Position numbers and translations under genes: made by a program. Source: Ignavibacteriaceae bacterium (GTDB lineage Bacteria > Bacteroidota > Ignavibacteria > Ignavibacteriales > Ignavibacteriaceae). From it: a stretch of 46,539 nucleotides of DNA. The stretch covers positions 1 to 46,539 of the forward strand of contig JACZKK010000084.1 in the NCBI GenBank assembly GCA_014860115.1, in the 5' to 3' direction. This document shows, in pieces, positions 15,031-45,432 of the stretch. Under the pieces are notes generated by a model, which was given only the letters and a program-made list of their open reading frames with translations, searched no databases and was not told the DNA's origin. Within the stretch, counting starts at the first letter, position 1; each line of letters starts with the position of its first letter.

Positions 15031-15038
15031 TATAGTTT

Positions 15039-15371: not shown

Positions 15372-15384
15372 TAAAGTTCTCCGT

Positions 15385-15801
15385 TTAAGTTAAATTTTTT
15401 ATGATTGTTATTCTTGTCCCGTTAGGTCCGGATTCAATGATAAGATCATCAGACATTGATTTCATAAGTTTAAGGCCCCATCCACGCTTGTGTGTGCTGT
15501 GAATTTTATCCCCGATATTTGGTTCTTCAACACTCCCTGGCTCAAAACCGGTTCCGTAATCAGTTACTAGAATTATTAATTTTTCTTTATCCATAGTAAA
15601 CTCAACATTCAGATAAGGGTTATTTTCGCCCGAATGTTCAAGACCATTTATAATTGCTTCAGTCACAACAATTTTGGCTTCATTTACTTTGTTTTCAGAA
15701 ATGCCAAAATGTTTACCCATTAGAAGAAGGCTCTCTACAGCGACTAACTCAATATCCGGTATGTTGGGCAGCTTCAGATCCAATTTGATAGGTGAATCCA
15801 T
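15385..15801 (-). CDS. RsbW-like anti-sigma serine kinase (HATPase)
   Basis: A 138-residue GHKL ATPase of the RsbW/SpoIIAB type. The N box [10 protein letters not shown] has Glu48 and Asn52, the G1 box is DYGTGF (Asp81 to Phe86), and GWGL at 107-110 is the G2 lid. These proteins phosphorylate STAS antagonists and hold a sigma factor or other target inactive. No sigma factor gene is in the window, so the target is encoded elsewhere or is not a sigma factor. It overlaps a possible upstream 39-codon frame as TAATG and has no strong ribosome site of its own. Confidence 0.9.
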
Positions 15802-15920
15802 TAGATTACTTTCAAATAATTATAAGTTAAGACAATTAATAAAACACAGGCCAGAACTTTAATATCGGGATACGGTTTTTTATTTACATCCTTATAATAA
15901 TAAAGTTCAGGCTTACTCAA
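15801..15920 (-). CDS. possible 39-residue single-helix membrane micro-protein
   Basis: A 39-codon frame on the minus strand from a TTG at 15920. The translation begins [18 protein letters not shown] and ends in a hydrophobic stretch, [18 protein letters not shown], that could cross the membrane. Its TAA stop shares one base with the RsbW ATG (TAATG), and it begins 14 bases after the stop of the propeller-phosphatase gene, so it would fill an otherwise empty 133-base gap. AGGA lies 12 bases before the TTG, a longer spacing than ideal. I know no homologue. If real it could couple the receptors or kinase to the membrane; this is inference. Confidence 0.4.
15850..15912. repeat. 12-bp inverted repeat between receptor and RsbW genes
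   Basis: GCCAGAACTTTA at 15850-15861 and TAAAGTTCAGGC at 15901-15912 pair with one mismatch, 39 bases apart. On the minus strand it could form a stem ahead of the RsbW gene, but it also lies inside the possible micro-protein frame. Confidence 0.4.
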
Positions 15921-15934
15921 AAAAATACTTTATC

Positions 15935-19696: not shown

Positions 19697-19753
19697 AGTA
19701 ACCTCAAATGATACAAGCGATAAAAAAATATTAAGAAAGTTGAAAGGCTCATT

Positions 19754-23509: not shown

Positions 23510-23518
23510 TCCGTTACC

Positions 23519-27154: not shown

Positions 27155-27234
27155 AAAATTTTCCTTGTTAACTTGATTTTGAAATAGATTTGATAAACAA
27201 TCATTTCATCCGATATAATTGAAACTATAAAAAT

Positions 27235-30200: not shown

Positions 30201-30396
30201 AGCCATCGTATCTGTTAAGCCCATCCTGAGTACCGAACCACATAAATCCACTTCTATCCTGCTGGATACAGGTTACGGAGCTTTGTGATAAACCATCTTC
30301 AATGGTCAGGTGATTAAATACAATATGACTCTGCGGCAAATATTCAGAAGAGAAGAAGAGAAAAGAAACTATACAAAGCAGGAACACCCTGATCAT
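27235..30396 (-). CDS. propeller-Y_Y_Y-TM-SpoIIE phosphatase receptor 1
   Basis: A 1,053-residue receptor with the most regular propeller of the four: about a dozen blades of the form NPxDPxSLSDNxVxSIYEDRSGNLWIGT between residues 25 and 620. Y_Y_Y (about 650-755), a membrane helix (about 759-780), a charged coiled linker and a SpoIIE PP2C domain (about 825-1053) follow, with EVGGDYYDF, GDATGHGL, LTDGLPEQ and DDDITFVV intact. A signal peptide covers residues 1-22. Two seven-bladed propellers are the usual arrangement in this sensor class. The inserted module of receptors 3 and 4 is absent. It is the first of the four receptor genes and is separated from the upstream T9SS protein by a terminator, so the receptor block may have its own promoter in the 30400-30490 region. 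Confidence 0.94.
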   Translation of the reverse strand: MIRVFLLCIVSFLFFSSEYLPQSHIVFNHLTIEDGLSQSSVTCIQQDRSGFMWFGTQDGLNRYDGYNIKVFKNNPGDSTSLTDNFIFSIYEDLSGTLYIETQSGTFHQYNPRSESFQIVIKDSVDLERARVNSVNALLQESSGIRWTGGLSKGTGLVRLDTKTSKSTTFKHNPSDPSSLSDDKVYSVYRDRSGNLWVGTFNGLDRLDEQTGKFIHYRNKPGEPNSLADNWVWPIFEDSRGNLWIGTVRSGLSMFDPKSNKFLNYKNDPNDPTSINDNFVFSIYEDRSGLIWIGTNLSGINYFNPSTQNIEQYTHDPGNKNSLSDDIVLSMIVDKDGYYWIGTRTGGLNKFDYSKKKFTLYNNNPSNANTIISNSIQSLLEDRSGNIWIGTFSSGLDVLNPQTGAFTHYTNNPSNPNSLSDNRVYSLVEDNAGNIWIGTYGGGLNKLDRATGKFFRYQFKENDPSSISSNATWSLALDDEGDLWIGTFGGGVNVLNLNNQKFTYYKNNPADSASIADDNIIRIYKDRRGNMWIGTTKGLSRYSKENKTFINYDEKDGLANNFIYGILEDEEGNLWISTNIGISKFNPEKETFKNYYVQDGLQGNEFNQNAFAKDYKTGRLLFGGPNGFNVFSPDDVKENSYVPPVVYTNYTRYNSDDEEGKPIFERGISARDSILLTYKDNIVTLQFAALSYYNNSQNRYRYKLEGFNDNWIQLGNDHTVTFTNLSPGDYKLIVTGSNNDGIWNEEGRTLFIEVTPPWWRTNIAYAIYVITFLSLLYGMRRFEINRREQKTKLRENELRLKATEAEKRAIQIENDRKTKELEEARQLQLSMLPKELPTLPNLEIAAFMRTATEVGGDYYDFIVEENGVLNVAFGDATGHGLQAGTMVTLMKGFFTSDSSKLGLKEFMSHCTRVIKDIKLGRILMSFSYLKIDKNNLEITSAGMPPVFYHHKETNQVEEIIIKGMPLGAMRNALYNTVEMDLKSGDTILLLTDGLPEQMNPDEEMFDYLRVKKHFNEIIDNSPNTIIEKLVEAGDSWMSGRVQDDDITFVVIKVK

Positions 30397-30530: not shown

Positions 30531-33500
30531 TTACTTCATCAATATCATTTTCTTGGTTGACACATAAGAACCACTAATAATTCTATATATATAAATACCA
30601 CTTGCGAGCTGACTTGCGTTCCAGTTGACGCTGTAATAACCAGCTTCCATCTCCTGATCTACGAGATCGGAAACCAGATTACCCAGGATATCATATACCT
30701 TTAAGCTTACATGATTCTTTGCAGGCAATTGATAGTTTATTGTTGTGCTTGGATTGAACGGATTAGGATAATTCTGCTCAAGAGATATTTCATCAGGAAT
30801 TATTTGTGGTTCATCTTCACCGTTTTCAGGTTCTCCCGATTCTTTAGCCAGAGTATTATTTATGTAGTAAATCTTAGTGCTTCCCCCAATTTGGATCTCT
30901 CCATTTGTCCATAAAGCTCCTTTAATAATACAACTGGTTCCTAAAGTTATATTTCCAAGTGGACAATAAATACTTCCATTCCATTTACCGCTTCCACCCA
31001 GCTGGAAATAACCATGAGTTTCTAGATAAACATCATCTGGTCCTCCATTGAGTATTGTTGTTGTCAGGCTCGTTCCAAAATTAACATTTCCGGTTATGAA
31101 AATTCGGATTTTTCCATTTGCCACATTTAGGTTTAATTTTCCACTGCCGCCCATTGAAAACGACGTAAAGTAATAATCGCCAGAACTCAAATTAAGAGTC
31201 TTGGAGGTACCCAGATTAACACTGCCGTAAGAACCGGGGCTAAGAGTAGCATTTGATGTGATATTTGTTCCACCGGAGTTGAAAACTGTTGCAGGCGGAA
31301 GAGTTATTAAATTATATGATTGTGGAATCTGCGGCGTACCATTCTCTGTGATCACACCATAAATTATTGAGCTGCCACCAATGGATGCAGTTCCTGCCGT
31401 AGTTAAATTTCCGAATATTTTAACGGAAGTGCCAAGACTAACATTTCCCCCGGCATCAATATTTCCATTAACGTTTGTACTTCCACCAAGATCAACAAAA
31501 TTATTAGAAATAATGTTTCCACCAACTAAAACACTTGTGCCGCTATTAAAGTATCCACCACTATTTATATCACCATTAATTTGACTACTTCCGCCTAATT
31601 GAACATTTCCATTAAATGTGAGGTTGTTAGTACTAATGCTTGTTCCGCCGGTAAACTTTCCATTACCCCCAACACCTTCTGTAATAGAAGAGGATCCACC
31701 AATCTGAACATCAGCATTACCAACAACTTTTCCATCAAACACCTTAACACTGGTGCCAAGCGTTACCTTTTGATTAGCGAAGACCGGGTATGGAGGAAAT
31801 TGAACTATTGGCTCAACTGGTTCCTCGAATGGCGATATAAAAAATGAGTGTTCAGTTTGAATTACATATTGACTATTATTATTACTTCCGTTTCCAACAC
31901 TATCAGAAGCAATAACTTTTACATCATAATTTCCAGCCAGCGAAGTCTCAAGTGAAATGTTATAGGTACCGTCTTCAGTCAGTGATAAGAATCCCACAAC
32001 CACCTGACTGTCAGGCGAAGTTATTTGCAAACTAACTATAGCATTATTAACAGGGGTTCCAACTGTTTTTGTATCATCGCCTGTTTCACTTTTCTCACCA
32101 CCCTCAAATAACGTAGCTTCAAGATTTACCACCACAGGCATTGGATTGCCGTATTGATCACTTTCTAGGATATAGCGTTCTTTGTCAGATTTAAATTTGA
32201 GCACAAGATCAGCTTCATTACTCATGTATACACGAATAGGTTCAGGTGTTGTCGGCGCAACATTTTCTACGATAGCATATGTCCACTGACCAACTCCCGG
32301 GCTATTCACTCTGAAGTATTTATATGGTTTGCCATATGTAGCGGTTCCATCAAAAAATTCTACACCATACGGTGACGAACCGAAATTAGCTTCTGTAATT
32401 GCACCAGCTGGTAACACTCCTCCTTCACCAACTGTTTCACCCGGAGGTAATAATACAAGTTCATATTCGCTTCCCTGCCAGGATAAACCAAGTTCAAGAG
32501 TTCCACCCTGCCATTGCAAACCACCCTGCCATTGAAGTCCGCCCTGCCATTGTAATCCACCCTGCCATTGCAAACCACCCTGCCATTGTAATCCGCCTTG
32601 CCATTGCAAACCACCTTGCCATGAAAGTCCGCCCTGCCATTGCAGACCACCTTGCCATTGCAGACCACCATCAAAATATTCACTGCTTATTTCTTCAGAA
32701 AGATATGATATTTGGAGACCCAGTAATCGCAGCCAAATAATATTTACTGCTGTAGGAATTTCAGTTGAACTTGCAATTTCATAATACTCACCTTCGGTTT
32801 CTTGTGCCAACCAGCTCATCAAATCTTGTCCTGCTCTAAAATCTTCAAATCCCATTGTGTATATTTTTATTTCAGGATCAATACCAAGGTCAGTTATGAG
32901 AGAAAATGGAGACACTTCACCAGCGCTAAATAAGATCATAACTTTTTTGTTTGTGCCTGAACCCGAGTTCAATATTGATTGAGCTGACATTATTCGATCG
33001 GCAAGATTTCCGGTTGAATTTGGCTCTATGAGATTGAGTGTGTTCAGCTTTGCGTTGAAGTCATCTCCAAGCGGCTCAGTGGAAGAACCGTTTACCCAGC
33101 CAACTCTGTCGCCAATTCTCATCTTAGTAATTAGTTCAAGCGCAGCATTCTTTGAAGGTATAAATCCGTTTAGTACTTCCGTAGATGTAAAATTACTTGT
33201 ACCATCGAACACTAAAACGATATCATAATAAATATCACCAAGGTTTTTATAAATATAATTTATACCGCCAACATCATATCTTGTTATGTCTAACTGATTT
33301 GATAGCCAGTCTGGATCTGAAGGACCAGGATGTAAACTGTTCTTATATGTCTCTCCAACATCAATCCTTCCATACATTGTTGCCAGCTGGTTATTATTTT
33401 TCATTTCAAGCAAATATGCGAAATCACCCGGATTATATAAATCTCCCAAACCACCGTAATGACCGGCTTCATGCGTGGTTACATTTTGAACATCCAGTTT

Positions 33501-36485
33501 ATCAGAAGATCCATCAGTTGCCCAGTAAAATTGTCCCAGTCCTGCGAGAGAAATTGGTTCTCCGTTAAATGCAAGATCTACGTCGATCAACTCACCATTT
33601 AGTGCGTTGTATCTGACTCTGGTTACTGCAACTACATTTGTTGGGGCTTCGATTGAATCTTCCCACATTTCACTTGTTGGATACCAGACAACATTGTTTA
33701 TTCCATCCGCATTTCCAAAAGCTTGACCGGAATTCGTGACGCTTAAGTCTTTTCTTACATAAGTTAATTGTTCCAGTGTACTCCAGGTATCGAAGCCAGT
33801 TTCAACTGCTTCAGCAAAACCGGAAGGCTGTTGTTCGCCAATAGTAGTTGAAACCGAACCGTAAATCTCATAATCACCATTCCCATTTTTCCAGTGAAGT
33901 GGAATTCCGGCAAGAGTAGTATTTACCAAATAGTGATCACCCTCATCAGTAGCCCTTTCAATTGCAAAAGAGAATTCGGAAGAGCTTAAAGGATTATTAT
34001 AAAAATCTAAACTTGTTATAGTTGCACCAATAACTTCTTCAGAAGTAAGCACCGCATCTTTTAGATTTGCGAGAAAATCTGCTTCACCTATAATATCTGC
34101 AGTTGCATCAACTTCACCAAGATAGCGTTTGCCTTCTCTGCTATTCATACTTGAGTTAGCGAAGAATTGAATTCTATAATTCTGTTCAGGTAAACCGAGG
34201 AGAGTTCCTTGAATAGATGTTCCACCCCTTATTTCGGGTAGTGCTGTCTCGTCTTGCCAGGTGTAAAAAGTATTGAGTGTCGGGTACACTTGTGAATCAT
34301 TTGCACCAGCAGCAAGCTCAATTCCCAAGGAAGTGTTGTTATAGATTGAATTACTCAGAATAGAATTATTGTTTCCAGATGCAACAAAAACACCAGGAGC
34401 GCCATTATTAAAAATCGAATTGTTGCTCACATTGTTAGCATTTCCATTAATAATTACACCTTTACTTGCATTATCAGAAATTTCATTTTCAGAAACGATA
34501 TTGCTATCGCTGGCTTCCAATGAAATTCCGAAAGCTAAATTTCCAGAAACAAGATTTCCTTCGAGAGTTACTGAGCCAGTAGTTATAGAAATTCCACCAA
34601 GAATATTAACTCCAACTGTGTTATTAACGATTTGATTCCCAGTGCCCGAAGTAACAAATATTCCTAAGCCGGCATTTTCAGAAACGGTATTTCCGGAAAG
34701 AGTATTCCCGCTTGCACTATTAAGGGATATTCCAGCACCTTGATTTTGAGTGACTGTATTTTCTGTTAAACTTCCGGTACTATTTGAAATAGAAATTCCA
34801 CCAAGGGCATTTGTCCCAACAATATTATTGTTGATTTGGTTTGCAGTACTGCTATCGACAAATATTCCAAAACCGGTGTTAGCCATAATAGTATTCCCCG
34901 ATAAAGTTCCGGTTCCGTTGAACAATATTAATCCATCACCGTTGTTGGTCTCTACCAGATTATTTAAAATCTGATTATTTGTTCCGCCATTTACAGAAAT
35001 TCCGAAACCGGTATTTCCACTTATGTTGTTTCCATTAACCGGCCCGGTACTGTTGGATATAAAAATCCCACCAAGGGTATTATTTGCAATGCTGTTATTT
35101 GATATTTGATTTCCATTTGCATCCATCACAGAAATTCCATAACCGGCATTTCCTGTAATGGTATTTGCAGCAGCTATCCCAATCAGATTATTTATTGCCC
35201 CGGCATTAATTGAAATTCCATTGCCGATTGATCCAGTGATAGTATTGTTATTTATACTGTTTCCTTGTGAGCTTAACGATATTCCCGAAATTTGATTTGC
35301 CGAGATAGTATTATTTCCCGCAGAAGAGAGCGTTAAACCAAAACCCGATGAACTATTAATTTTTAGTCCTTTCACAGTGCTTCCACCAGCCGTAATTGTT
35401 AATCCTCCAAAAGCTCCTTGTGTTTCGACAATCGGCAAACCACTATATCCCCTTTGTAAAGTTCCATCCAAGATAACCGGACCAGAAATATTTGGTAACG
35501 CAGAAGAAGGCGAAATTGTTAGCGGGGAAGATCCGGCTTTATAAAAATAAATTTTTTGCAGATTGGCCAAAGCATTTGCTTCCTGAATGGCAGATCTCAA
35601 AGTAACCACACCATTGCCTGCATCTGCGACTTCATTTCCAGGATTTAAATCCGGTAAATCCAAAGTTGAATTTACAACGAAGAATGGCAAAGGATTACTT
35701 TTCACAACTTCATTTATGTCTGCCAGCCTCAGATAATTTTTCTTCGATGAAAAATCTTTTAAATAAGGAGTGCCACTGTATGAATTTATTTCTGTGAAAG
35801 ACCATCTTCCGTATAAATACGAAATAAGTGAAGAAGGAATTGACGATGATGGATCTCCACCACCATTACAACTCGATATCTGACTTGAGGTTAGTGCCTT
35901 ATTAAAAATTCTTGCTTCATCAATCAATCCATTGAATTTATCATTATCGTGTTTTCCTATGAACAATCCCGTTCCTGTGGTATAAGTTGGACCAAGCGAA
36001 GTAGTTTTAGTATCTGCCAAGACACCATCATAATAAAGTTTTAAGACTTGTCCATCATAAGTTCCTGTTAATCTAATCCAGCGGAAGGCAGGAAAAGAAG
36101 GAAAATTAGTAGCGGTACTAACTGGCGCACTGTTTCCAACAGTAAAGAAAGCAGTATTGTCTTTTACATACATATAAAATGAAGTTCCGCCAACCACAAC
36201 TCTTTTAATGACCGGCATCAGAACACCCGGGTTATCTCCCAATAAATATATCCAGGCATCAACAGTTATTTTTTTACTGCTTGAAGAAGTAGAATTATTA
36301 AAGTATTTAAACCCCAATTGATTTGCATCTCCATTTATTGGGGCTCCATCCAGGATGTAGGAAGAACTTGTTGTTCCGTTAAAAATGAAAGACTTGTTGG
36401 TCCCGGTTGCAAAAGAATCATTGCTTGCAACGAGAATTAACAATAAAAGGGTGAAGTAAAGGTTTGTGCTGAAATTTTTTTTCAT
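30531..36485 (-). CDS. giant T9SS-secreted LamG / beta-helix / metzincin / VWA protein
   Basis: A 1,984-residue exported protein. In order it has a signal peptide (1-26), a LamG-like domain (about 40-210) and a LRSAIQEAN motif like CSLREA proteins near 290. A right-handed beta-helix of N-rich GNxISGN repeats (about 300-730) follows. A matrixin-like protease segment (about 870-1060) has HEAGHYGGLGD (His1005, Glu1006, His1009, third ligand Asp1015) and a following ATMYG Met-turn. Then come a VWA-like domain (about 1085-1260), nine GGLQWQ repeats (about 1274-1327), Ig-like sandwiches, a bactofilin-like region of LGTS/IGGSS repeats (about 1590-1800) and a type IX sorting domain with YPNPFNPST near 1907. 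Protease followed by VWA and sandwich recalls the CLCA family. GAGGG precedes the ATG. Confidence 0.85.
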   Translation of the reverse strand: MKKNFSTNLYFTLLLLILVASNDSFATGTNKSFIFNGTTSSSYILDGAPINGDANQLGFKYFNNSTSSSSKKITVDAWIYLLGDNPGVLMPVIKRVVVGGTSFYMYVKDNTAFFTVGNSAPVSTATNFPSFPAFRWIRLTGTYDGQVLKLYYDGVLADTKTTSLGPTYTTGTGLFIGKHDNDKFNGLIDEARIFNKALTSSQISSCNGGGDPSSSIPSSLISYLYGRWSFTEINSYSGTPYLKDFSSKKNYLRLADINEVVKSNPLPFFVVNSTLDLPDLNPGNEVADAGNGVVTLRSAIQEANALANLQKIYFYKAGSSPLTISPSSALPNISGPVILDGTLQRGYSGLPIVETQGAFGGLTITAGGSTVKGLKINSSSGFGLTLSSAGNNTISANQISGISLSSQGNSINNNTITGSIGNGISINAGAINNLIGIAAANTITGNAGYGISVMDANGNQISNNSIANNTLGGIFISNSTGPVNGNNISGNTGFGISVNGGTNNQILNNLVETNNGDGLILFNGTGTLSGNTIMANTGFGIFVDSSTANQINNNIVGTNALGGISISNSTGSLTENTVTQNQGAGISLNSASGNTLSGNTVSENAGLGIFVTSGTGNQIVNNTVGVNILGGISITTGSVTLEGNLVSGNLAFGISLEASDSNIVSENEISDNASKGVIINGNANNVSNNSIFNNGAPGVFVASGNNNSILSNSIYNNTSLGIELAAGANDSQVYPTLNTFYTWQDETALPEIRGGTSIQGTLLGLPEQNYRIQFFANSSMNSREGKRYLGEVDATADIIGEADFLANLKDAVLTSEEVIGATITSLDFYNNPLSSSEFSFAIERATDEGDHYLVNTTLAGIPLHWKNGNGDYEIYGSVSTTIGEQQPSGFAEAVETGFDTWSTLEQLTYVRKDLSVTNSGQAFGNADGINNVVWYPTSEMWEDSIEAPTNVVAVTRVRYNALNGELIDVDLAFNGEPISLAGLGQFYWATDGSSDKLDVQNVTTHEAGHYGGLGDLYNPGDFAYLLEMKNNNQLATMYGRIDVGETYKNSLHPGPSDPDWLSNQLDITRYDVGGINYIYKNLGDIYYDIVLVFDGTSNFTSTEVLNGFIPSKNAALELITKMRIGDRVGWVNGSSTEPLGDDFNAKLNTLNLIEPNSTGNLADRIMSAQSILNSGSGTNKKVMILFSAGEVSPFSLITDLGIDPEIKIYTMGFEDFRAGQDLMSWLAQETEGEYYEIASSTEIPTAVNIIWLRLLGLQISYLSEEISSEYFDGGLQWQGGLQWQGGLSWQGGLQWQGGLQWQGGLQWQGGLQWQGGLQWQGGLQWQGGTLELGLSWQGSEYELVLLPPGETVGEGGVLPAGAITEANFGSSPYGVEFFDGTATYGKPYKYFRVNSPGVGQWTYAIVENVAPTTPEPIRVYMSNEADLVLKFKSDKERYILESDQYGNPMPVVVNLEATLFEGGEKSETGDDTKTVGTPVNNAIVSLQITSPDSQVVVGFLSLTEDGTYNISLETSLAGNYDVKVIASDSVGNGSNNNSQYVIQTEHSFFISPFEEPVEPIVQFPPYPVFANQKVTLGTSVKVFDGKVVGNADVQIGGSSSITEGVGGNGKFTGGTSISTNNLTFNGNVQLGGSSQINGDINSGGYFNSGTSVLVGGNIISNNFVDLGGSTNVNGNIDAGGNVSLGTSVKIFGNLTTAGTASIGGSSIIYGVITENGTPQIPQSYNLITLPPATVFNSGGTNITSNATLSPGSYGSVNLGTSKTLNLSSGDYYFTSFSMGGSGKLNLNVANGKIRIFITGNVNFGTSLTTTILNGGPDDVYLETHGYFQLGGSGKWNGSIYCPLGNITLGTSCIIKGALWTNGEIQIGGSTKIYYINNTLAKESGEPENGEDEPQIIPDEISLEQNYPNPFNPSTTINYQLPAKNHVSLKVYDILGNLVSDLVDQEMEAGYYSVNWNASQLASGIYIYRIISGSYVSTKKMILMK
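32503..32664 (-). repeat. nine tandem 18-bp units encoding GGLQWQ
   Basis: Nine contiguous 18-base units, each starting CCACC or CCGCC on the plus strand (for example CCACCCTGCCATTGCAAA at 32503), encode GGLQWQ eight times and GGLSWQ once. Units differ mainly at wobble positions, and near-identical variants alternate, as expected from unequal crossing-over or slippage. Because the unit is a multiple of three, copy-number change keeps the frame. Confidence 0.95.
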
Positions 36486-36554: not shown

Positions 36555-37049
36555 TTAGTCATTTATATAGTTTTTAATTTGAGTTTTAAGAGAATTGATC
36601 TTAACATTCGAAGTTGTAACCTTCTCTCCAGTTTTGGGATCGTTGATTACATTTATTTTTCCTTGTTCACCATTCAAAACTTTATAATCCGTACTTCTGT
36701 CATCCTTTTCCAGAAAAACCAAAACTTCTTCATTCTCTTCAAATCTAGGCATGTGAGAATATAGCTCGCCAACATCTCCCACTTCTCCACCGGGATAGCT
36801 GACAACTATTGAATTTCCGGTATTGCCGCCCTTCAAGTATTCGTCAACCTGAATGGTTGCTTGAGTATAAATTCTTGTTTTGTTTTCGTTCCAGTTGGAG
36901 TTTTGTTGTGTTACCTTGCCGGTAATAATAACATCGGCGTTTTGGGAAAGATTTTTTAATTCGGATTGGCTTGTCTGAGCCAAGCCGTAGAAGAGAAATC
37001 CACTAATTATGACAGTGACTAATGCCCAACTTATAATTCTAATTTGCAT
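36555..37049 (-). CDS. small secreted or membrane-anchored protein of unknown function
   Basis: A 164-residue protein with an N-terminal hydrophobic segment (about 5-24) that is either a signal peptide or an anchor. The rest forms a beta-rich domain with SQNADVIITGKVTQQNSNW, RIYTQATIQVDEYLKG, SYPGGEVGDVGELYSHMPRF and EEVLVFLEKDD. I recall similar conserved proteins (GKV...RIYT...GG..G......P.F..GEE...FL) in several phyla, without a known role. It lies 69 bases upstream of the giant T9SS protease-like gene on the same strand, so the two are probably co-transcribed. A role as partner or inhibitor of the protease would fit but is inference. Confidence 0.7.
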   Translation of the reverse strand: MQIRIISWALVTVIISGFLFYGLAQTSQSELKNLSQNADVIITGKVTQQNSNWNENKTRIYTQATIQVDEYLKGGNTGNSIVVSYPGGEVGDVGELYSHMPRFEENEEVLVFLEKDDRSTDYKVLNGEQGKINVINDPKTGEKVTTSNVKINSLKTQIKNYIND

Positions 37050-37119: not shown

Positions 37120-37153
37120 GGAGTAATATTGCATTTAATAGGAGTATTATTGC
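37120..37153. promoter_or_regulatory. 21-bp-spaced direct repeats, possible operator
   Basis: GGAGTAATATTGC (37120-37132) and GGAGTATTATTGC (37141-37153) differ at one base and are 21 bases apart, two helical turns. They lie about 70-100 bases upstream of the small secreted protein's start. An AraC-type regulator such as the neighbouring hybrid kinase could bind such direct repeats; that link is inference. Confidence 0.4.
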
Positions 37154-37242
37154 GAATTTCTCAGGGGAATTAGATTAATGATAATTGTGGGATTTTGAGA
37201 AGGTTTTTATGATGGTGACACAGATTAGTTCCACCAGACACC

Positions 37243-37285: not shown

Positions 37286-37481
37286 GTTTATATTTTACAC
37301 TGTCAATTGTAGACACAATACGCTACTCTCTCTTTCCACAAATAATATAAAAATTCAACGATATCTATTGGTATTTATTGTTAGCTTTATATGTATTTTG
37401 CAATCAGGAAAAATTACCACGTATTTCCAATAAATTATTTCATCTTCACTTGTATTTGATCGGTTACAATTGCCAGGGGCT

Positions 37482-40400
37482 ATGCTAAAGGGAAGCAGAT
37501 TAATCAAATTATTTAATAGACCATCCGAACATTCACGGACTATTTCCTTGATTCAATTATTGCTGATTGTGCTAATTGGATCAGCAAGTTATCCGCAACA
37601 GGATATCCTCAAATTCAAAAAACTAACAAGCAATGATGGTCTGTCACAGAATTTTGTTTCTACGATTCTTCAGGATAAAAATGGCTTTATGTGGTTTGGG
37701 ACAAAGGACGGATTAAACAGATACGATGGATATGAGTTTAAAGTTTATCGCTACAATCCGTTTGATACAACCTCACTTTCGGGAAATTTTATTTCTGCCG
37801 TATTTGAAGACTCAAAAGGAAGATTATGGGTTGCATCAAAAACGCTTGATCTTTTCATTCCTGAAAAAGATGCATTTAAAAGAATAGTTTTGAAAATTCC
37901 AACTAATAAAACTGACAACACAATTAATGTCAGCAAAATTACATCAATTACTGAGGATAAAAACGGATTGATTTGGTTAGGTACAAATGATGGTCTGATT
38001 AGTTATGATCCGCAAACAAATTCCTCGAGGATGTTTTACCAGACACGGGATAAAAGCTCACCTCTCTCTTATAATCTGATACTATCATTAAGTAGTGACG
38101 ATTCTCTGCTCATCGTAGGTACACAGAACGGAATGAAATTATTGAATCTTGATTCTCTCAAAAAAGATAAAATTGAATTCATAAAAATTTTACACGAAGA
38201 TGCAAAAGGACTTTTAACCAGCAGACGAACGATTCTTAGTCAGTTTCGCGCTTCTTCAAATCTTATATATTCCGGCACACCTGCTGGTCTGATCAAGATA
38301 GATCTTAGCACAAGGAAATCAGAATTTATTCCTTATAAAGGCTATTTGTTCTTTCCATTCTGGATGAATAGAATCTTAGCAATTGTTCAAGACAAGAACA
38401 GTAATCTATGGCTTGCCTGTTCAGGTGGTTTAGTTGTTTATAATCCTGTTCGAGATAGTTTCAAATATTACTTTCATGATCCAAAAGATGACCAATCGGT
38501 AAGCTTGAACAACATCACAAGTTTGTTCGCTGATCGCGGTGGTAAAATATGGATCGGGACTGCCGGGAAGGGAATAAATCTGTTCGATCAAAACAAAAAA
38601 GAATTTTCTTTGTACAACGGTTTGGTGGATAGAGAACCGTTCAAAACTTCGTTTAGCGTAACTGCAATTTTATCTGAGAGCGATAATGTTTTATGGATTG
38701 CCTCTCAACAGAAATTATTTCGGTTGGATAGAGTAACCGGAGAATACAAACACGTTAAATTATTATACGGTCCCGAGGGAGAAATAACTTCTATTCTAAA
38801 AGACAAAAAACAAAACCTTTGGGTAGCCTCCAGCGGAGGTCTTCATAAAATAGCCAGTGTGGGTGAAAAGATCACTTATTTCAGTAATAATCCGACAAAT
38901 CCCAATTCACTCACGGATATGTTTGTCAAACTGCTCTTTATTGACAGTCACGGAAATTTGTTTGCTCTCAACTCAAGGTACCTGAGCAAGTTTAACGAGG
39001 GTTCGAATACATTCACACATTATGAACTAAATTTTTTAAACAAAAATGATTTCGCACCGATAATCAGATGTATTTATGAAAGCGAAGATGGCTCACTCTG
39101 GTTTGGCTGGTCTGGGGGGCTTGTTAAATATAATTTAGAAACGCAAGAAAAAATCTTATACACCCATCAGCCGGGTAACCACAAAAGTATCAGCAACAAT
39201 GAGATACTCACGATTTGCGAAGATCCAGCTCAACCCAAAAAATATTTGTGGGTCGGAACGCAGGGCGGTGGCTTAAGCAGATTAAATCTTGAAGACGGAA
39301 CATTCTCTAATTTTTCTGTAATTGATGGTCTTCCAAATAATGTTGTTTATGGAATTCTTTCTTCAGGGAGTGAGCTTTGGCTGAGTACAAACAATGGGTT
39401 GTGCAGAGTTACAACCGATAAATATGGCACACCAACTTTCAGAAATTATGACGTAACAGATGGGCTCCAGGGAAATGAATTCAATACCGGTGCTTATTCC
39501 AAAAGCAGTTCCGGTGAATTATTTTTTGGCGGACTGAACGGAGTGAATGCATTTTTCCCTACTAATATTCGGGATAATATTTTTATCCCGCCAGTTGTAT
39601 TCACCGAGTTAAAATTTTTAAAGGGTAATTTAGATGGAGAAAGCAACTCACAACTTCGAATAAATACTGTAATTAATAATTCCGAGGTAACAATTCCTTA
39701 CTCACAAAATTCATTTACAATTCAATTTGCTGCACTAGATTATACGGCAACTGAGAAAAACAGTTATATGTATAAGCTAATACCGATTCACAATGAATGG
39801 ATAAATCTTGGAACACAACGAAACGTCACATTTACTGAGCTTGGCGTCGGCGAGTACGAGCTCATTGTGAAAGGATCAAATAATGATGGCATCTGGAACG
39901 AAGAAGGTGCTTCATTACAAATAATAATAGCCCCGCCCTTTTGGCAAACTATCTGGGCTTATGGTGTATATGCTGTTTTATTTATGATGATTCTTTACAT
40001 AATCAGAAGATATGAATTGAGCAGACTCCGGTTAAAGAGCAGACTCAAAATCGAATCGTTCGAGACTCAAAAACTTAAAGAGCTTGATGAAATGAAATCG
40101 GGTTTCTTTGCTAACATATCGCACGAGTTCAGAACACCGCTAACTTTGATACTTGGTCCGGCAGAACAGCTTGAGCAGAGCGAAACAGACAATAACAAAA
40201 AAGAAAAGCTTCACACCATAAAAAGCAGCGCAAACCGTTTATTGAGATTGATAAATCAAATACTTGATCTTTCAAAACTTGAAAAGGGTAAAACCAAATT
40301 ACATTGTGAAGAAGGAGATCTCGTAATGTTTTTAAAAGGAATAACAAATTCCTTTTCAAGCATTGCAGAAAGAAAGAACATTACCATGCAATTAGTCAGC

Positions 40401-41660
40401 GAAGTTTCAAATATTCAAACGCGTTTCGATAGAGATGTTTTTGAGAAAATATTCTTTAATCTTATTTCAAATGCATTTAAGTTCACTCCCAATGGTGGCA
40501 GCATAGAAGTGAAAATTAATAAGCCCACATCAGGTGATTTTTGTAAAATTACCGTTAAAGATTCGGGTGTTGGGATTGATGATAATGATCTGCCGAAGGT
40601 GTTTAATAAATTTTATACTGTTGAAAACATTAATGGATTTACTGAGCAGGGCAGCGGAATAGGTTTGGCTTTAGTAAAAGAACTAGTGGTGCTTCATAAA
40701 GGAAGCATAACTGTTGAAAGTAAGATCAATGAAGGTTCAACATTCACTGTTTATATTCCTGTTGGAAAAGATTTTCTGAAGGAAGATGAATTTATAAATG
40801 TAAAATCAAAAGATTTTTCTATTTCTGAAAGCAAAACAAACGAATTTATAGATGAAGAGCCTTTACAGGTTCAGCCTGAAAACGGATTTGATGATGAGAA
40901 ACTTGCCGAAGATCCGGTAATTGCGTTGATCGTAGAGGATAATCCCGAGTTAAGAAACTACATAGCGTCAAACTTACAATCTGATTATAAAATAATAGAA
41001 GCCTCCACAGGCAAGGAAGGTTGCGAGAAGGCGGTTGAAATAATTCCAGACATTATAATCAGCGATATCATGATGCCCGAAATGGATGGATACTCATTAT
41101 GCAAAAAACTAAAAGCCGATGAAAGAACCAGTCACATTCCGATTATTTTATTAACCGCAAGGGCAAGCGAAGAAGACAAGATAACTGGACTGGAAACAGG
41201 CGCAGATGATTATCTTACAAAACCCTTCAGTTCCAAAGAGTTGTCACTAAGAGTTAGAAATTTGATTGAGATTCGACAGACACTCAGGAAGAAATTCAGT
41301 AGTTCTCTTATAATCAAACCCAAAGAAATTGTAACTGGTTCTGTTGATAAAAGCTTCCTGGAGAAAGCGATGAAGATCGTTGAAAAAAACATCAGCAACG
41401 ACAAATTTTCAGTTGAAGATTTCAGCAGCGAAATGAATCTTAGCCATTCGCAGCTACACAGGAAACTCAAAGCTCTTGTTAATCAATCTGCAATTCAATT
41501 TATCCGATCCATTCGTATGCAAAGAGCTCTTGAGTTGCTTCAGGGTAATTCAGGAAATATTGCTGAAATAGCCTGGCAGGTAGGATTCGGAGATCCAAGC
41601 TACTTCACAAAAACTTTTTCCAAACATTTTGGTTACCTTCCCTCCGAAGTTAACAAATAA
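37482..41660 (+). CDS. hybrid two-component system protein: propeller, histidine kinase, REC, AraC
   Basis: A 1,392-residue hybrid regulator. A membrane signal segment (about 25-41) is followed by two sets of propeller repeats starting GFMWFGTKDGLNRYDGYEFK. Y_Y_Y (about 736-816), a membrane helix (about 822-845) and HisKA with FFANISHEFRTPL (His881) come next. The HATPase region (about 980-1093) has NLISNAFKFTPNGG, DSGVGI and GSGIGLALVKEL. A receiver (about 1145-1257) has phosphoacceptor Asp1195 in SDIMMPEMDG, and an AraC-type DNA-binding domain (about 1297-1392) ends the protein. It senses a periplasmic ligand and acts directly as transcription factor, usually on adjacent genes, so either the secreted-protein cluster downstream or the divergent block is a likely target. 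A TTG at 37470 is an alternative start. Confidence 0.95.
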   Translation: MLKGSRLIKLFNRPSEHSRTISLIQLLLIVLIGSASYPQQDILKFKKLTSNDGLSQNFVSTILQDKNGFMWFGTKDGLNRYDGYEFKVYRYNPFDTTSLSGNFISAVFEDSKGRLWVASKTLDLFIPEKDAFKRIVLKIPTNKTDNTINVSKITSITEDKNGLIWLGTNDGLISYDPQTNSSRMFYQTRDKSSPLSYNLILSLSSDDSLLIVGTQNGMKLLNLDSLKKDKIEFIKILHEDAKGLLTSRRTILSQFRASSNLIYSGTPAGLIKIDLSTRKSEFIPYKGYLFFPFWMNRILAIVQDKNSNLWLACSGGLVVYNPVRDSFKYYFHDPKDDQSVSLNNITSLFADRGGKIWIGTAGKGINLFDQNKKEFSLYNGLVDREPFKTSFSVTAILSESDNVLWIASQQKLFRLDRVTGEYKHVKLLYGPEGEITSILKDKKQNLWVASSGGLHKIASVGEKITYFSNNPTNPNSLTDMFVKLLFIDSHGNLFALNSRYLSKFNEGSNTFTHYELNFLNKNDFAPIIRCIYESEDGSLWFGWSGGLVKYNLETQEKILYTHQPGNHKSISNNEILTICEDPAQPKKYLWVGTQGGGLSRLNLEDGTFSNFSVIDGLPNNVVYGILSSGSELWLSTNNGLCRVTTDKYGTPTFRNYDVTDGLQGNEFNTGAYSKSSSGELFFGGLNGVNAFFPTNIRDNIFIPPVVFTELKFLKGNLDGESNSQLRINTVINNSEVTIPYSQNSFTIQFAALDYTATEKNSYMYKLIPIHNEWINLGTQRNVTFTELGVGEYELIVKGSNNDGIWNEEGASLQIIIAPPFWQTIWAYGVYAVLFMMILYIIRRYELSRLRLKSRLKIESFETQKLKELDEMKSGFFANISHEFRTPLTLILGPAEQLEQSETDNNKKEKLHTIKSSANRLLRLINQILDLSKLEKGKTKLHCEEGDLVMFLKGITNSFSSIAERKNITMQLVSEVSNIQTRFDRDVFEKIFFNLISNAFKFTPNGGSIEVKINKPTSGDFCKITVKDSGVGIDDNDLPKVFNKFYTVENINGFTEQGSGIGLALVKELVVLHKGSITVESKINEGSTFTVYIPVGKDFLKEDEFINVKSKDFSISESKTNEFIDEEPLQVQPENGFDDEKLAEDPVIALIVEDNPELRNYIASNLQSDYKIIEASTGKEGCEKAVEIIPDIIISDIMMPEMDGYSLCKKLKADERTSHIPIILLTARASEEDKITGLETGADDYLTKPFSSKELSLRVRNLIEIRQTLRKKFSSSLIIKPKEIVTGSVDKSFLEKAMKIVEKNISNDKFSVEDFSSEMNLSHSQLHRKLKALVNQSAIQFIRSIRMQRALELLQGNSGNIAEIAWQVGFGDPSYFTKTFSKHFGYLPSEVNK

Positions 41661-41703: not shown

Positions 41704-41741
41704 TTACCAGTCTGCAATAAATTTACCAGACAATGCAATAT
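41704..41741 (+). promoter_or_regulatory. imperfect direct repeats upstream of the secreted-protein cluster
   Basis: TTACCAG occurs at 41704-41710 and 41723-41729, and GCAATA at 41714-41719 and 41735-41740, giving an imperfect repeat with a period near 20. It lies 70-110 bases before the first lipoprotein gene, where an operator could be. The evidence is weak. Confidence 0.25.
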
Positions 41742-41812
41742 CTGTTATATGCTTCCACTGACCCCGTGAGCTATGTTTGCAGCAGTTCAAATTGAAAAAA
41801 ACAATAGACATT

Positions 41813-42328
41813 ATGAAAACATTTTCATTGATTTTTATCATCGCCTTGCTGTTAAGCGGGTGCAAATCAGAAAAGCTTACTTCCGAACAGCGCACTTCTG
41901 AAAGAGATAAAATTAAGACACGTATAGAGACTTTTCTTATTTCATATGCTAAAAAGGATATGAACACAATTGTAAGCATGCTTTCTTCTTCTAAGGATTT
42001 TAACTTTTTAGGAAGCGATGTTTCAGAAATAAATAAGAATAAATCAGATTTCCAGAATCAGCTTGACCAGGATTGGAAGCTGTTTGAGTCGGTGGATTTT
42101 GGCGAGATAAGAAACCTCTCCATTAGAATTTCTGAGTGCGGTGATCTTGCTGTAGCATTATTTGACGCACCAATGACAGTTGTTGTAAAAAGCAATCAGT
42201 CAAAATTTTTCTTCAGAATGTCGAATACATTTGTAAAAGAAAACGGTCTCTGGCAGTTGGTGCAGGGATTAGGCTCAATTCCATCTGTGGGCGAATCTTC
42301 TGTTGAGCTAATACAGAAATTAAAATAG
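41813..42328 (+). CDS. lipoprotein, NTF2/SnoaL-like (DUF4440-type)
   Basis: A 171-residue lipoprotein with lipobox LLSGC (Cys17). The mature part looks like an NTF2-like fold: an N-terminal helix with RIETFLISYAKKDMNTIVSML, then FNFLGSDVSEINKNKSDF and a beta sheet ending FVKENGLWQLVQGLGSIP, the usual WxLVxxH-type last strand. In this superfamily the cavity binds small molecules, but catalytic residues are not evident. The frame extends 12 codons upstream; the ATG at 41813 starts a perfect lipoprotein signal, so it is preferred. It opens a run of six small exported proteins downstream of the hybrid kinase. Confidence 0.75.
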   Translation: MKTFSLIFIIALLLSGCKSEKLTSEQRTSERDKIKTRIETFLISYAKKDMNTIVSMLSSSKDFNFLGSDVSEINKNKSDFQNQLDQDWKLFESVDFGEIRNLSIRISECGDLAVALFDAPMTVVVKSNQSKFFFRMSNTFVKENGLWQLVQGLGSIPSVGESSVELIQKLK

Positions 42329-42368
42329 TCTGGTGTTATTAAACACCATGCATAATCATCAAACAAGA

Positions 42369-42392
42369 AGGAGCTAGTACTATGAAACAAAC
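42369..42392 (+). repeat. conserved start-region repeat, copy 1
   Basis: This 24-base stretch begins AGGAGCTAGT, includes the ATG at 42382 and ends in GAAACAAAC. It is identical, except for one A/G change, to 43991-44014 around the start of another gene of the cluster. It carries the ribosome site and first codons. Confidence 0.8.
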
Positions 42393-42831
42393 AATAAAAT
42401 TATTTCTATTCATTTTTCTGCTAACTGCTTTTATTAGTAATACATTTGCAGGTGACGGAGAAGATGTAAGAGCTCTAGTTGATAAGTCAGCTGAGGCGTT
42501 TAATAAACAGGATTACACAACCTATTGGTCGTTATTTACAGAAGATAATACAGAATTTCTTTACGTCGGATCAACTTTAAGACACGATGCGGCTGCCTGG
42601 AAGGGATTTATTGAAGGGACTGCAGGACTCGCCTACGTTAATTATCATGGGCAGGATTTTGAAATTCAGACTTACAATGGTAATTCAGCAGTTGTAACAA
42701 GCTACTATACTTTTTCATGGATGGAAAAAGGGGGACAAATGAATTATCAAAGTGGCAGAACTACAGTAGTTGCTGTTAAACAAGGTGGGAAATGGCTTAT
42801 TGCTCACATGCACTTTTCGAAAATGTTTTAA
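42382..42831 (+). CDS. secreted SnoaL/NTF2-like protein
   Basis: A 149-residue protein with a signal peptide (1-23, ending NTFA). The NTF2-like fold is clear: VRALVDKSAEAFNKQDYTTYWSLFTEDNTEFLYVGS, then the sheet FEIQTYNGNSAVVTSYYTFSW and the last strand GGKWLIAHMHFSKM. DUF4440/SnoaL_3 proteins of this shape bind small hydrophobic ligands or act as isomerases; no specific reaction can be given. AGGAG lies eight bases upstream. It is the second gene of the exported-protein run. Confidence 0.85.
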   Translation: MKQTIKLFLFIFLLTAFISNTFAGDGEDVRALVDKSAEAFNKQDYTTYWSLFTEDNTEFLYVGSTLRHDAAAWKGFIEGTAGLAYVNYHGQDFEIQTYNGNSAVVTSYYTFSWMEKGGQMNYQSGRTTVVAVKQGGKWLIAHMHFSKMF

Positions 42832-42870
42832 TAAAGTTAACACGATTCCTTCTTAATAAAAGAGAGAAAA

Positions 42871-43373
42871 ATGAAATCATTAATAAAAAACATTCTTGTA
42901 TTAAAAGTTTTAACTCTGTTTTTAGCAATTGCATTCGTAACAGGATGCCAGCAGTCAGAAAATTCTAACATTCAGGTTAAGGTTGAAACACCCGAGTATT
43001 TTAGCCTGCGCCCCGATGTTGAAAAAGCTTATGGTTATACACACGCTGTAAAGATTGGCGATGATATCAAAATCTCAGGTGCTGTTAGTATGGACGATAC
43101 CGGTAATCCTACGCAAATGGTGATTTAGCAAAGCAAATGAAAAATTGTTATTCCGATCTGGATAGGGTGCTGAGGCATTACGGATGTACTTTCGATGATG
43201 TTGTGGTTGAAAATATTTTTACAACAAATATGCCTGAGTTCCTCAATCAGTCTGGCTATCGTAATACAATTTACACCAAGCAATTTCCCACGGGCTCGTG
43301 GCTCGGAGTTAAAGAATTAGCTTTACCTGAGTTTATGATAGAAATCGAGTTGGAAGTTCATAAGACCAAATAA
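42871..43373 (+). pseudogene. RidA/YjgF-family lipoprotein broken by a frameshift
   Basis: Two adjacent frames together make one RidA-like lipoprotein. The first (42871-43128) has a signal with lipobox VTGC (Cys26) and the strand HAVKIGDDIKISGAVSMDDTGNPTQ. The second (from about 43119 to 43373) continues in the next frame with GDLAKQMKNCYSDLDRVLRHYG and ends LPEFMIEIELEV. Restoring one base in the A run at 43115-43117 (ACGCAAATGG) gives a continuous protein of about 167 residues. Either the gene is inactivated or the base is a sequencing error. The family's catalytic Arg near the end (PARS in RidA) is Gly here (PTGS), so classical imine deaminase activity is unlikely even if intact. Confidence 0.85.
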
Positions 43374-43427
43374 CAAGTTCATCAAAATATTTTAATCAAT
43401 TTCAAAAATCAAAAAGGAGCCAATGTT

Positions 43428-43952
43428 ATGAAACAATTTTTTAACTCAATTCTAAAAGCAAGTCCATTGTTTTTAGTTATGGCATTTATGATTTTCTCAG
43501 GATGCCAGCAGCAAAAACCTGATCCCTCTGTAGAAATGAAACCGATAGTGGATAAACTGGAGGATGCCTGGAATGGCAGAAATATAGATGCTCTGGATGC
43601 GATCTTTGCCCCTGACTTTGTGCGGATTGTAAATAATCAGCCGGAGGCTAATGGTGTTGAAGGATATAAAAAAGCTATTGCAGATTTCAGAACGGCTTAT
43701 CCTGATCTCAAATTAACTTTAGATAATACAATGTACACCGAAAATGGCGGAGCTACCCGCTGGGTTTTAACAGGAACGAATACCGGTTCCGGCCAGATGA
43801 ATCCCACGGGTAAATCTGTAAATATCTGGGGTTTATCCATTGTACATATTGCAAATGGTAAGGTTACAAAAGAAATAGTAGCTTTTGATAATCAGGTTCT
43901 TATGGAGCAATTGGGATATGCAATGATGCCAGCCACAGAGGAAAAGAAATAA
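43428..43952 (+). CDS. lipoprotein with SnoaL-like ester-cyclase fold
   Basis: A 174-residue lipoprotein (lipobox FSGC, Cys26). The mature part is a SnoaL-like domain: VDKLEDAWNGRNIDALDAIFAPDFVRI, GVEGYKKAIADFRTAYPDLKL, TRWVLTGTNTG and the GLSIVHIANGKVTKEIVAFDN strand are all typical of the SnoaL/ester-cyclase branch. Family members include polyketide cyclases, but most bacterial members have unknown roles. AAGGAG precedes the ATG. It differs from the two other NTF2-like genes in the cluster by closer similarity to SnoaL itself. Confidence 0.88.
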   Translation: MKQFFNSILKASPLFLVMAFMIFSGCQQQKPDPSVEMKPIVDKLEDAWNGRNIDALDAIFAPDFVRIVNNQPEANGVEGYKKAIADFRTAYPDLKLTLDNTMYTENGGATRWVLTGTNTGSGQMNPTGKSVNIWGLSIVHIANGKVTKEIVAFDNQVLMEQLGYAMMPATEEKK

Positions 43953-43990
43953 TTTATTAATTCAAATCAAAATTATTAACACAATTAAGT

Positions 43991-44014
43991 AGGAGCTAGT
44001 GCTATGAAACAAAC
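43991..44014 (+). repeat. conserved start-region repeat, copy 2
   Basis: A 24-base match, with one difference, to 42369-42392. It carries the ribosome site AGGAG and the first codons of the gene at 44004. The proteins encoded after the signal peptide are not alike, so the similarity is limited to the start region. Confidence 0.8.
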
Positions 44015-44432
44015 AACAAAAATTTTTGCATTAATTCTTGTTGCATTTCTATTTCTCAGCGAAAGTAATTTCGCACAAAACAATGAGCAGCCATTGCTTA
44101 TTGTAAGCTTTAATATGGTATCAATGGGTGATGTTGCCAAAGTAAGTAAAATGGCTGATTCAGTTTTTGCGCCTATATTAAGGGAGCTTGTAGATGAAGG
44201 CATGATATACAGTTTTGGAAACTTCACTCATAATTGGGGTGACGAGTGGAATGTTAACACCTGGTATACCGCAAAAGATATGGCGTCATTTGACAAATTC
44301 TGGGATGAATATGTAAGCAGAATTGGTAAAAGACATCCCGGTGCGTGGGCGTCAACTGTAAAATATTTCCAGGCACATAAGGATAATATTTATACAATTC
44401 GCAATCAATATCCTGCTCCACCAACTAAATAA
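44004..44432 (+). CDS. secreted alpha+beta protein of unknown function, paralogue A
   Basis: A 142-residue protein with a signal peptide (1-24, ending NFA). The mature part LLIVSFNMVSMGDVAKVSKMADSVFAPILRELVDEGMIYSFGNFTHNWGD followed by NVNTWYTAKDMASFDKFWDEYVSRI has the strand-helix-strand order of a ferredoxin-like, possibly dimeric alpha-beta barrel fold. I do not recognise a named family. The next gene encodes a protein of the same plan and length, with matching WWG/NWGD and W.A/DMASF positions, so they are probably distant paralogues. Confidence 0.7.
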   Translation: MKQTTKIFALILVAFLFLSESNFAQNNEQPLLIVSFNMVSMGDVAKVSKMADSVFAPILRELVDEGMIYSFGNFTHNWGDEWNVNTWYTAKDMASFDKFWDEYVSRIGKRHPGAWASTVKYFQAHKDNIYTIRNQYPAPPTK

Positions 44433-44474
44433 TTAAACAAAGTTAAAATCATCAACAAACTAAAAAGGAGTGCT

Positions 44475-44909
44475 ATGAAGTACTTTATCGTGTGTTCATT
44501 TCTAACGTTATTATTACTTACTGCCGGCAACCAGACGTTTGCCCAGCCTTCAGGAGGTAATGCAGTTATAGTCCAAAATCTTGAAAGAGCGTTTCCTGAT
44601 AATGGCACAATGGCCGAGTTCGATTCGCTTACACACTTGTTTCAAACGAAAGTATGGGACAAGAATCCTCACGTTATAAGTCATAAAACTATCCGTCATT
44701 GGTGGGGAAATGATAACCGTGATGTTATTGAAATTACAGAAGTAAAAACCTGGGAAGATATTCCGATAGCGATGGAGAAAAACAACGAACTTTTTATGGC
44801 AGCCTGGTCAACCAAAGAAGCTCGTGATGTTTTCAACAAAGCATACAATAAATATTTCACCGGAAAACATTCTGATGAGATTTACCAGGAAGTTATGTTT
44901 GGTAATTAA
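44475..44909 (+). CDS. secreted alpha+beta protein of unknown function, paralogue B
   Basis: A 144-residue protein with a signal peptide (1-23, ending TFA). The order of strands and helices resembles the preceding gene: AVIVQNLERAFPDNGTMAEFDSLTHLF, then VISHKTIRHWWGNDNRDVIEITEVKTWEDIPIAMEKNNELF. AAGGAG lies just before the ATG. It ends the exported-protein cluster and is followed by a good terminator. A stress-related or ligand-binding role is possible, but nothing in the sequence settles it. Confidence 0.7.
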   Translation: MKYFIVCSFLTLLLLTAGNQTFAQPSGGNAVIVQNLERAFPDNGTMAEFDSLTHLFQTKVWDKNPHVISHKTIRHWWGNDNRDVIEITEVKTWEDIPIAMEKNNELFMAAWSTKEARDVFNKAYNKYFTGKHSDEIYQEVMFGN

Positions 44910-44930
44910 TAATTAGATCCAGTTATTATG

Positions 44931-44959
44931 AGGAGCGGATAATTTCTGCTCCTTTTTTT
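44931..44959 (+). terminator. intrinsic terminator of the exported-protein cluster
   Basis: AGGAGCGG (44931-44938) pairs with CTGCTCCT (44946-44953, with one G-T pair) around a seven-base loop, followed by TTTTTT. It lies 22 bases after the last gene of the cluster. Confidence 0.9.
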
Positions 44960-45102
44960 ATTAATTTCAGTTGCCCCCAATATGCTTTTTTGTTATATAT
45001 TTACCCAGGAAAATAGATTGAACAAGGATTCTTGGTTCAGCATATTAGCGAAGACAATTGTTTTAAGTGCTCAACACGCAACTATCTTTTAAAGGTATAG
45101 CA

Positions 45103-45432
45103 ATGAAAATATCATCCCAAACCGAAGATAAGTTTTCAATTATCAAATTTGATGTTGATCAGATTTTAGGTTATGAGGCTCAAGAATTTCAGGATCTTGT
45201 TCTAAATTCTCTTGGGCAGAATGTTAACTGTATTATAGTTGACCTATCCGCAGTAAAGTTTATTTCAAGCTGGGGAATCGGGATGCTCATTCACGGGCTC
45301 GCAACAACAAGAAACAGAGGCGCCGATTTCAAACTTGCAGGTTTAGCGGAGAACGTAATGCAGGTTTTTCAAAAAGTTAAAATTGATACCGTATTAAGTA
45401 TTTATAAAAATGTGGATTTAGCTAAATCCTGA
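45103..45432 (+). CDS. stand-alone STAS-domain protein
   Basis: A 109-residue STAS protein. The central part NCIIVDLSAVKFISSWGIGMLIHGL has a Ser55-Ser56 pair before WGIG, in the position of the phosphorylated Ser of SpoIIAA/RsbV (DSSGLG), so phospho-regulation is possible. It is not next to a kinase or phosphatase gene, but five SpoIIE phosphatases and one RsbW-like kinase are encoded in the same window, so it may be a second substrate. The frame extends upstream; the ATG at 45103 has AAAGG about eight bases before it and gives a normal-length domain. A terminator follows. Confidence 0.88.
   Translation: MKISSQTEDKFSIIKFDVDQILGYEAQEFQDLVLNSLGQNVNCIIVDLSAVKFISSWGIGMLIHGLATTRNRGADFKLAGLAENVMQVFQKVKIDTVLSIYKNVDLAKS

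Follow-up and report, generated by a model that had tools for sequence, protein, structure and literature searches.

Introduction

Regulators of the hybrid two-component system (HTCS) type are known chiefly as switches of polysaccharide use. In the Bacteroides HTCS, as described in PMC3878776, the domain order is Reg_prop/Y_Y_Y/HisKA/HATPase/receiver/AraC helix-turn-helix (HTH), the targets are neighbouring polysaccharide utilization genes, and the published motifs consist of direct repeats spaced 21 bp from each other on average. A further point of comparison is the ECF41 sigma factors with their COE targets (PMC3426412), where a dedicated regulator likewise accompanies genes encoding small enzymes (e.g. 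carboxymuconolactone decarboxylases) and the promoter motif is conserved. The present study deals with a locus of an Ignavibacteriaceae bacterium (GCA_014860115.1, genome G000 of our set) in which an HTCS kinase is followed by six small genes (positions 41813-44909), referred to here as the array. The window, meaning the whole analysed stretch of 46,539 nt, is one complete contig (JACZKK010000084.1) of a genome of 3.93 Mb and 222 contigs.

The window kinase shares with the Bacteroides HTCS the domain order, the neighbouring position of the proposed targets and a candidate direct-repeat operator with a period of about 21 bp. However, its proposed targets are small exported ligand-binding folds, so that the regulator is of a known kind and the target set differs from the known one. 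A polysaccharide utilization locus was rejected because the array contains no such genes; a Pfam scan that covered the window array, further array members and part of the flanking genes gave no SusC/SusD pairs or glycan-degrading enzymes. Compared with ECF41, whose abstract leaves export of the targets unmentioned, the regulator belongs to another class and the array is larger and more variable. The array members share sequence families and predicted folds with the SnoaL/NTF2-like superfamily, RidA (YjgF) and the ABM/NIPSNAP/IsdG dimeric alpha/beta barrels, from which they differ in being exported (as scored by a heuristic), in a RidA without the Arg of aligned solved structures and in two barrel proteins, F1 and F2, that belong to no Pfam family. 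No array of this type, HTCS-controlled or otherwise, was found described in the open-access literature searched. Judging from the sequence comparisons below, we consider it likely that the array is the target operon of the upstream HTCS, in which the kinase would act through a repeat of 21-bp period to switch on the binding or conversion of small molecules in the periplasm.

The kinase and its clade

The window kinase is a complete single chain that joins an extracytoplasmic propeller to HisKA, HATPase, receiver and AraC-type HTH domains, with the motifs SHEFRTP at residue 884, GSGIGL at residue 1061 and DIIISD at residue 1194 in the receiver. Among seven candidates scored per genome, its best-scoring relatives were found in 21 of the 80 family genomes at E <= 1e-200. 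Several of these relatives are accompanied by a protein of 146 aa, named here P146, which lacks a signal and has a strongly conserved C-terminal stretch; it gave no Pfam match and no related solved structure and represents a newly defined protein family. P146 lies on the same stretch as a kinase relative in G045, G044, G041, G040, G066, G010 and G067, directly after the kinase except in G066 and G067, where the two are about 7 kb apart. The G007 contig stops just beyond the kinase and the conserved site described below, and P146 opens another contig, while G061 and G004 hold a sister pair of kinases that is likewise near P146. Altogether P146 occurs in 10 of the 80 family genomes, exactly the ten besides G000 that have a linked kinase. 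In the class it was found in 4 of 391 genomes, and two of these four belong to the same ten.

In a tree of 45 kinases, a single branch (SH-aLRT 99) separates the 13 kinases linked to an array or to P146 from the 32 unlinked ones. The linkage labels require one change on this tree, compared with a mean of 11.5 when shuffled, and none of 500 shuffles reached so low a value. This count depends on one relabelling made after the first tree had been seen: the first labelling gave two changes with kinase G004c22 unlabelled, although only 4 kb separate it from P146 with its site, and relabelling it, with the G405 and G223 kinases added, gave one change. The latter two kinases were reached via P146 and not via the kinase search, and both fall inside the linked clade.

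Candidate operators and promoter boxes

The gap between the kinase and the first array gene contains a direct repeat close to the proposed targets with a period of about 21 bp, as expected for an HTCS operator (Table 1). The exact form TGCAATA-N14-TGCAATA occurs once in the 3.93-Mb genome, and 16 places match with at most one mismatch. When the gap was shuffled 2000 times with dinucleotides preserved, 20 shuffles gave a period-21 run of at least 7. The consensus TAnnTTTG marks the -7 position of Bacteroidota promoters, and such a box lies exactly 59 nt from the first base of the repeat both here and at a second, one-mismatch copy on the opposite flank of the kinase. This second copy precedes a gene on the minus strand (36555-37049) that is possibly a second kinase target. 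Among the 14 other one-mismatch copies in the genome nine were inspected; seven of them lie inside open reading frames (ORFs), and no TAnnTTTG box was seen closer than about 80 nt to any of the nine.

A different site characterises the kinase clade. It recurs in nine genomes in the gap before P146, and in G007 in the gap after the kinase, with the consensus AAAAnTCCnAACATTTGCGnnAATAGTnCAAGATA; it starts about 93-106 nt ahead of the P146 start codon, and a box of the type TACTTTTG often follows 3' of it. A weight matrix of 38 columns was built from these ten genomes, without G405 and G223, and scored 34.7-54.9 bits in its own ten gaps. Over 2.15 Mb of overlapping loci the only other matches above 14 bits were two in G405 (38.3 bits before P146 and 43.9 bits elsewhere), one in G223 (22.5 bits before P146) and one of 14.4 bits. 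In a pattern search of 19 genomes, sites with 0-1 mismatch were confined to kinase-clade genomes. Matches with three mismatches arise about once per genome by chance, with the same result for a reversed control, and the two-mismatch class is weaker; the argument is carried by the 0-1 mismatch sites. A two-mismatch site in G041 that precedes an exported barrel protein is taken as support only, and one in G034 that lies inside an unrelated gene counts against this class.

An array is found downstream of the clade site in eight genomes (G061, G040, G041, G044, G066, G067, G004 and G405). In addition, a one-mismatch site in G405 leads to a further exported barrel with FIST and SpoIIE-type genes behind it, one in G066 with one mismatch leads to an operon that pairs a GAF-SpoIIE protein with an ABM protein, and sites with one and two mismatches in G004 precede small lipoproteins. 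The original prediction had proposed that the kinase controls the neighbouring array, which is supported by the kinase clade matching linkage, by the clade site found again in two genomes not used for the matrix, and by the period-21 repeat in the window. From these patterns we infer that the kinase would bind its site and activate the array.

The array and its relatives

The six array ORFs lie on one strand with intergenic gaps of 39-55 nt (Table 1). They had been predicted as a row of exported small proteins, three NTF2/SnoaL-like, one RidA-like and two of a ferredoxin-like fold; the coordinates and this composition stand, the last two being alpha/beta-barrel proteins, except that the RidA gene proved to be frameshifted. 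All six products were scored as exported by a home-made heuristic applied to the sequence, with S1, RidA and S3 as lipoproteins, and S1, S2 and S3 all match SnoaL-family profiles above the Pfam cut-offs.

F1 and F2 gave no credible Pfam match. AlphaFold predicts a beta-alpha-beta-beta-alpha-beta fold for both (pLDDT 90.7 and 77.9), and their models match structures of IsdG, NIPSNAP, ABM, SnoaB and 4-methylmuconolactone methylisomerase, with TM-scores to the query mostly of 0.4-0.6 and identities of 5-17%. The two are distant relatives of each other (hhalign probability 94.8) and represent two unnamed, newly defined barrel families. The neighbouring folds include enzymes acting on haem, muconolactone and polyketides, a range that appears too broad for a ligand to be picked from it.

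In the RidA-like gene, the lipoprotein signal and the N-terminal part (42871-43128) are in one frame and a piece with the L-PSP domain, which matches Pfam Ribonuc_L-PSP at 3.6e-11, continues in another frame to 43373. This frameshift may be real or an assembly error; seven relatives carry the exported RidA intact in one frame. The Arg after Pro-Ala has a role in RidA enamine/imine deaminase catalysis. In the exported RidA, Pro-Thr-Gly stands (8 of 8 homologues) where aligned solved structures read Pro-Ala-Arg. Because Gly thus replaces this Arg, the exported RidA is more likely to bind a ligand than to deaminate it, as far as the sequence indicates.

Table 1. Features of the kinase and array region of the window.
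Feature	Coordinates	Strand	Description	Evidence
164-aa protein	36555..37049	-	apparent signal sequence; start codon 78 nt downstream of second site; no Pfam match above cut-off	
Second copy of proposed operator	37127..37154	-	1 mismatch; TATTTTTG at 59-nt offset; other side of kinase	
HTCS kinase	37470..41660	+	Reg_prop propeller, Y_Y_Y, HisKA, HATPase_c, receiver, AraC-type HTH	Pfam, motifs, tree
Proposed operator	41713..41740	+	direct repeat TGCAATA-N14-TGCAATA, period 21; gap between kinase and S1	
Promoter box	41772..41779	+	TAnnTTTG-type -7 box, TATGTTTG; 59 nt from first base of proposed operator	
S1	41813..42328	+	SnoaL_3/DUF4440 lipoprotein	Pfam SnoaL_3 3.8e-10; export heuristic
S2	42382..42831	+	SnoaL_3/DUF4440 secreted protein	Pfam SnoaL_3 4.6e-13; export heuristic
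RidA	42871..43373	+	RidA-like lipoprotein gene, frameshifted	Pfam and frame analysis
S3	43428..43952	+	SnoaL-like lipoprotein	Pfam SnoaL 1.7e-23; export heuristic
F1	44004..44432	+	secreted protein of the dimeric alpha/beta-barrel type; no family in Pfam	AlphaFold model, fold match
F2	44475..44909	+	secreted dimeric alpha/beta-barrel-type protein	AlphaFold model, fold match, profile comparison
Terminator-like element	44930..44961	+	hairpin (44930-44954) and T-run closing the array	sequence

Among the 80 family genomes (G000 included), F1 occurs in 13, F2 in 18 with weak matches counted, and the exported RidA in 11 at E <= 1e-10, eight of these being strong. S2 is present in 10, and its seven strong matches (E below 1e-29) all fall within the F1 genome set. 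A scan of named genomes gave 13 loci with close F1 relatives (L039-L051), from Ignavibacteria and related metagenome-assembled genomes, and 30 loci with weaker relatives, which belong to Gemmatimonadota, Rhodothermales, other Bacteroidota and a small number of further groups. The distant relatives are mostly solitary, with a SnoaL-like neighbour in four cases; in Rhodothermales and other Bacteroidota (L056, L066, L067, L074 and others) the F1-like proteins are longer (238-332 aa) and possibly represent tandem copies in one chain. Seven of the 13 close loci have at least one further window family beside F1, counted without the extra query families drawn from those loci themselves, and three are without any array family.

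Similar arrays were found in 15 genomes (G000, G061, G068, G067, G038, G004, G066, G034, G078, G079, G040, G041, G044, G003 and G405), divided over two contigs in G066, with gene order and content reshuffled from one genome to another. The grouping exceeds chance, since these families are found clustered in related genomes as well, and the co-occurrence of these exported folds that had been put forward as a check was indeed observed. Further members in the relatives comprise exported cupin-like, ABM-like barrel, VOC, MoaF-like and DUF4440 proteins as well as cytoplasmic GYD, EthD, NIPSNAP-like, YdhR and CMD proteins, some of them below the Pfam cut-offs. An MFS/Acatn-type transporter lies 3' of the array in G040, G044 and G061, of which the G040 copy was profiled and the other two were recognised by their similar sequence. 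The same heuristic assigned export signals to 79 of 100 array ORFs of <=300 aa (14 arrays, without G405) compared with 30 of 91 neighbouring small ORFs.

Proposed function and alternative explanations

In the proposed mechanism, the outside propeller of the kinase would sense a ligand, the receiver would be phosphorylated within the same chain, and the AraC-type domain would then bind the 21-bp-period direct repeat upstream of the TAnnTTTG promoter. Binding would activate the genes for a series of small proteins, some secreted and some lipoproteins, of SnoaL/NTF2, RidA and alpha/beta-barrel type; in other lineages the same switch would act on cupin, VOC, MoaF-like and ABM-like members, with the gene content swapped. 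The folds suggest that the array may sense, bind or convert a small compound; its probable role in the periplasm is to bind, buffer or chemically alter one class of such compounds. A more general proposal, which we put forward tentatively and with somewhat less than even confidence, is that the HTCS switches on exchangeable exported ligand-binding or enzymatic modules that are tuned by lineage to reactive or signalling molecules and are able to share signal-peptide leaders, with P146 as a cytoplasmic partner. If the array is indeed the kinase's target, an HTCS clade with exported small-molecule-fold targets would widen the known role of these sensors and would offer a way to approach the orphan SnoaL, RidA and barrel proteins found outside the cytoplasm, with a defined operator, promoter and target list.

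Several points weigh against the array as the kinase's target operon. Outside the window, the most constant neighbour of the kinase is P146 and not the exported array, and P146 is missing from the window and from G000. Kinase, site and P146 occur without the exported array in G010 and G223, and the G045 contig stops after P146. Six of the 15 arrays (G068, G038, G034, G078, G079 and G003) have no such kinase in the examined sequence, some of them being on short contigs. The window repeat was chosen by eye in the gap and tested afterwards, it differs from the kinase-clade site, and within the latter the period-21 repeat is imperfect (4-7 of 12 positions). The window kinase attaches to its clade via a long branch (1.07), and since its repeat is unlike the clade site, the case for control in the window depends on that repeat. 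Furthermore, the compared kinases were picked by similarity to the window kinase or by array linkage, the fixed number of candidates scored per genome also counts against the reading, and the genomes behind the results include metagenome assemblies.

A first alternative is that the kinase's real target is P146 together with a signalling module (FIST, SpoIIE, STAS), the exported proteins being passengers settled nearby. This would agree with the constancy of P146 as a neighbour, with the two genomes that lack the array, and with the FIST/SpoIIE genes that follow in G061, G007 and G405. However, the window has the array and the repeat yet no P146, the extra sites in G041 and G405 directly precede exported barrels instead of P146, and an array stands downstream of the clade site in eight genomes; we regard this explanation as unlikely. 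Even less probable, in our estimate, is that such small folds cluster by general habit, for example in a stress island with mixed regulation, and that the nearness of the window kinase is a coincidence. The six arrays without a kinase nearby speak for it, as does the abundance of HTCS genes in the own genome, where 113 kinase candidates were counted and six of the seven scored were strong matches. Against it, the five other strong kinases of this genome, two of them on contigs under 7 kb, have no adjoining array, the linked kinases share one side of the tree, and the site recurs in genomes not used to define it. We also consider it highly improbable that the row is a mobile array of integron-like cassettes carrying small genes unrelated to each other: the genes are small, on the same strand and reshuffled between genomes, and SnoaL-fold proteins do occur in mobile cassettes, but the window gaps of 39-55 nt are short for cassette recombination sites, which typically exceed this length, no repeated inverted element was found between the array genes, and no recombinase appears in the window ORF list, of which part was profiled and to which no genome-wide integrase search was added.

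Neighbouring genes and minor observations

The hairpin and T-run behind F2 would close the array, although terminator-like sites are not rarer in shuffled sequence (three found compared with a mean of 2.5 in shuffles). An anti-phage defence function was rejected: PADLOC assigned no defence family to P146 or to the five array proteins submitted (S1, S2, S3, F1 and F2), and the kinase matches PDC-M43B models in its ATPase region alone.

The leaders of S2 (42360-42417) and F1 (43982-44039), comprising ribosome site and signal peptide, are 81% identical over 58 nt, and those of adjacent cupin and barrel genes in G034 (L050 7951-8483) are alike at 82 of 99 nt despite unrelated folds. Leader similarity between different families is on average not higher within the same genome (12.8) than between genomes (12.3), and leader sharing therefore rests on single strong pairs.

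A STAS protein (45067-45432) lies 3' of the array, and further upstream a row of Reg_prop/Y_Y_Y/SpoIIE phosphatase genes (13423-30396) is accompanied by a stand-alone SpoIIE protein as well as an RsbW-like ATPase (15385-15801). The SpoIIE, RsbW-like and STAS genes suggest a partner-switching circuit nearby. Repeated FIST-domain proteins adjoin arrays in L039 (11003-16197), L224 (9524-11858) and L048 (11556-13918). Elsewhere in the window, a DinB-superfamily protein (10588-11109), a fold that is usually cytoplasmic, has an apparent signal peptide and looks exported, and a protein of 1984 aa (30531-36485) combines a LamG-like domain, beta-helix repeats, a run of GLQWQGG repeats and a Por secretion tail.

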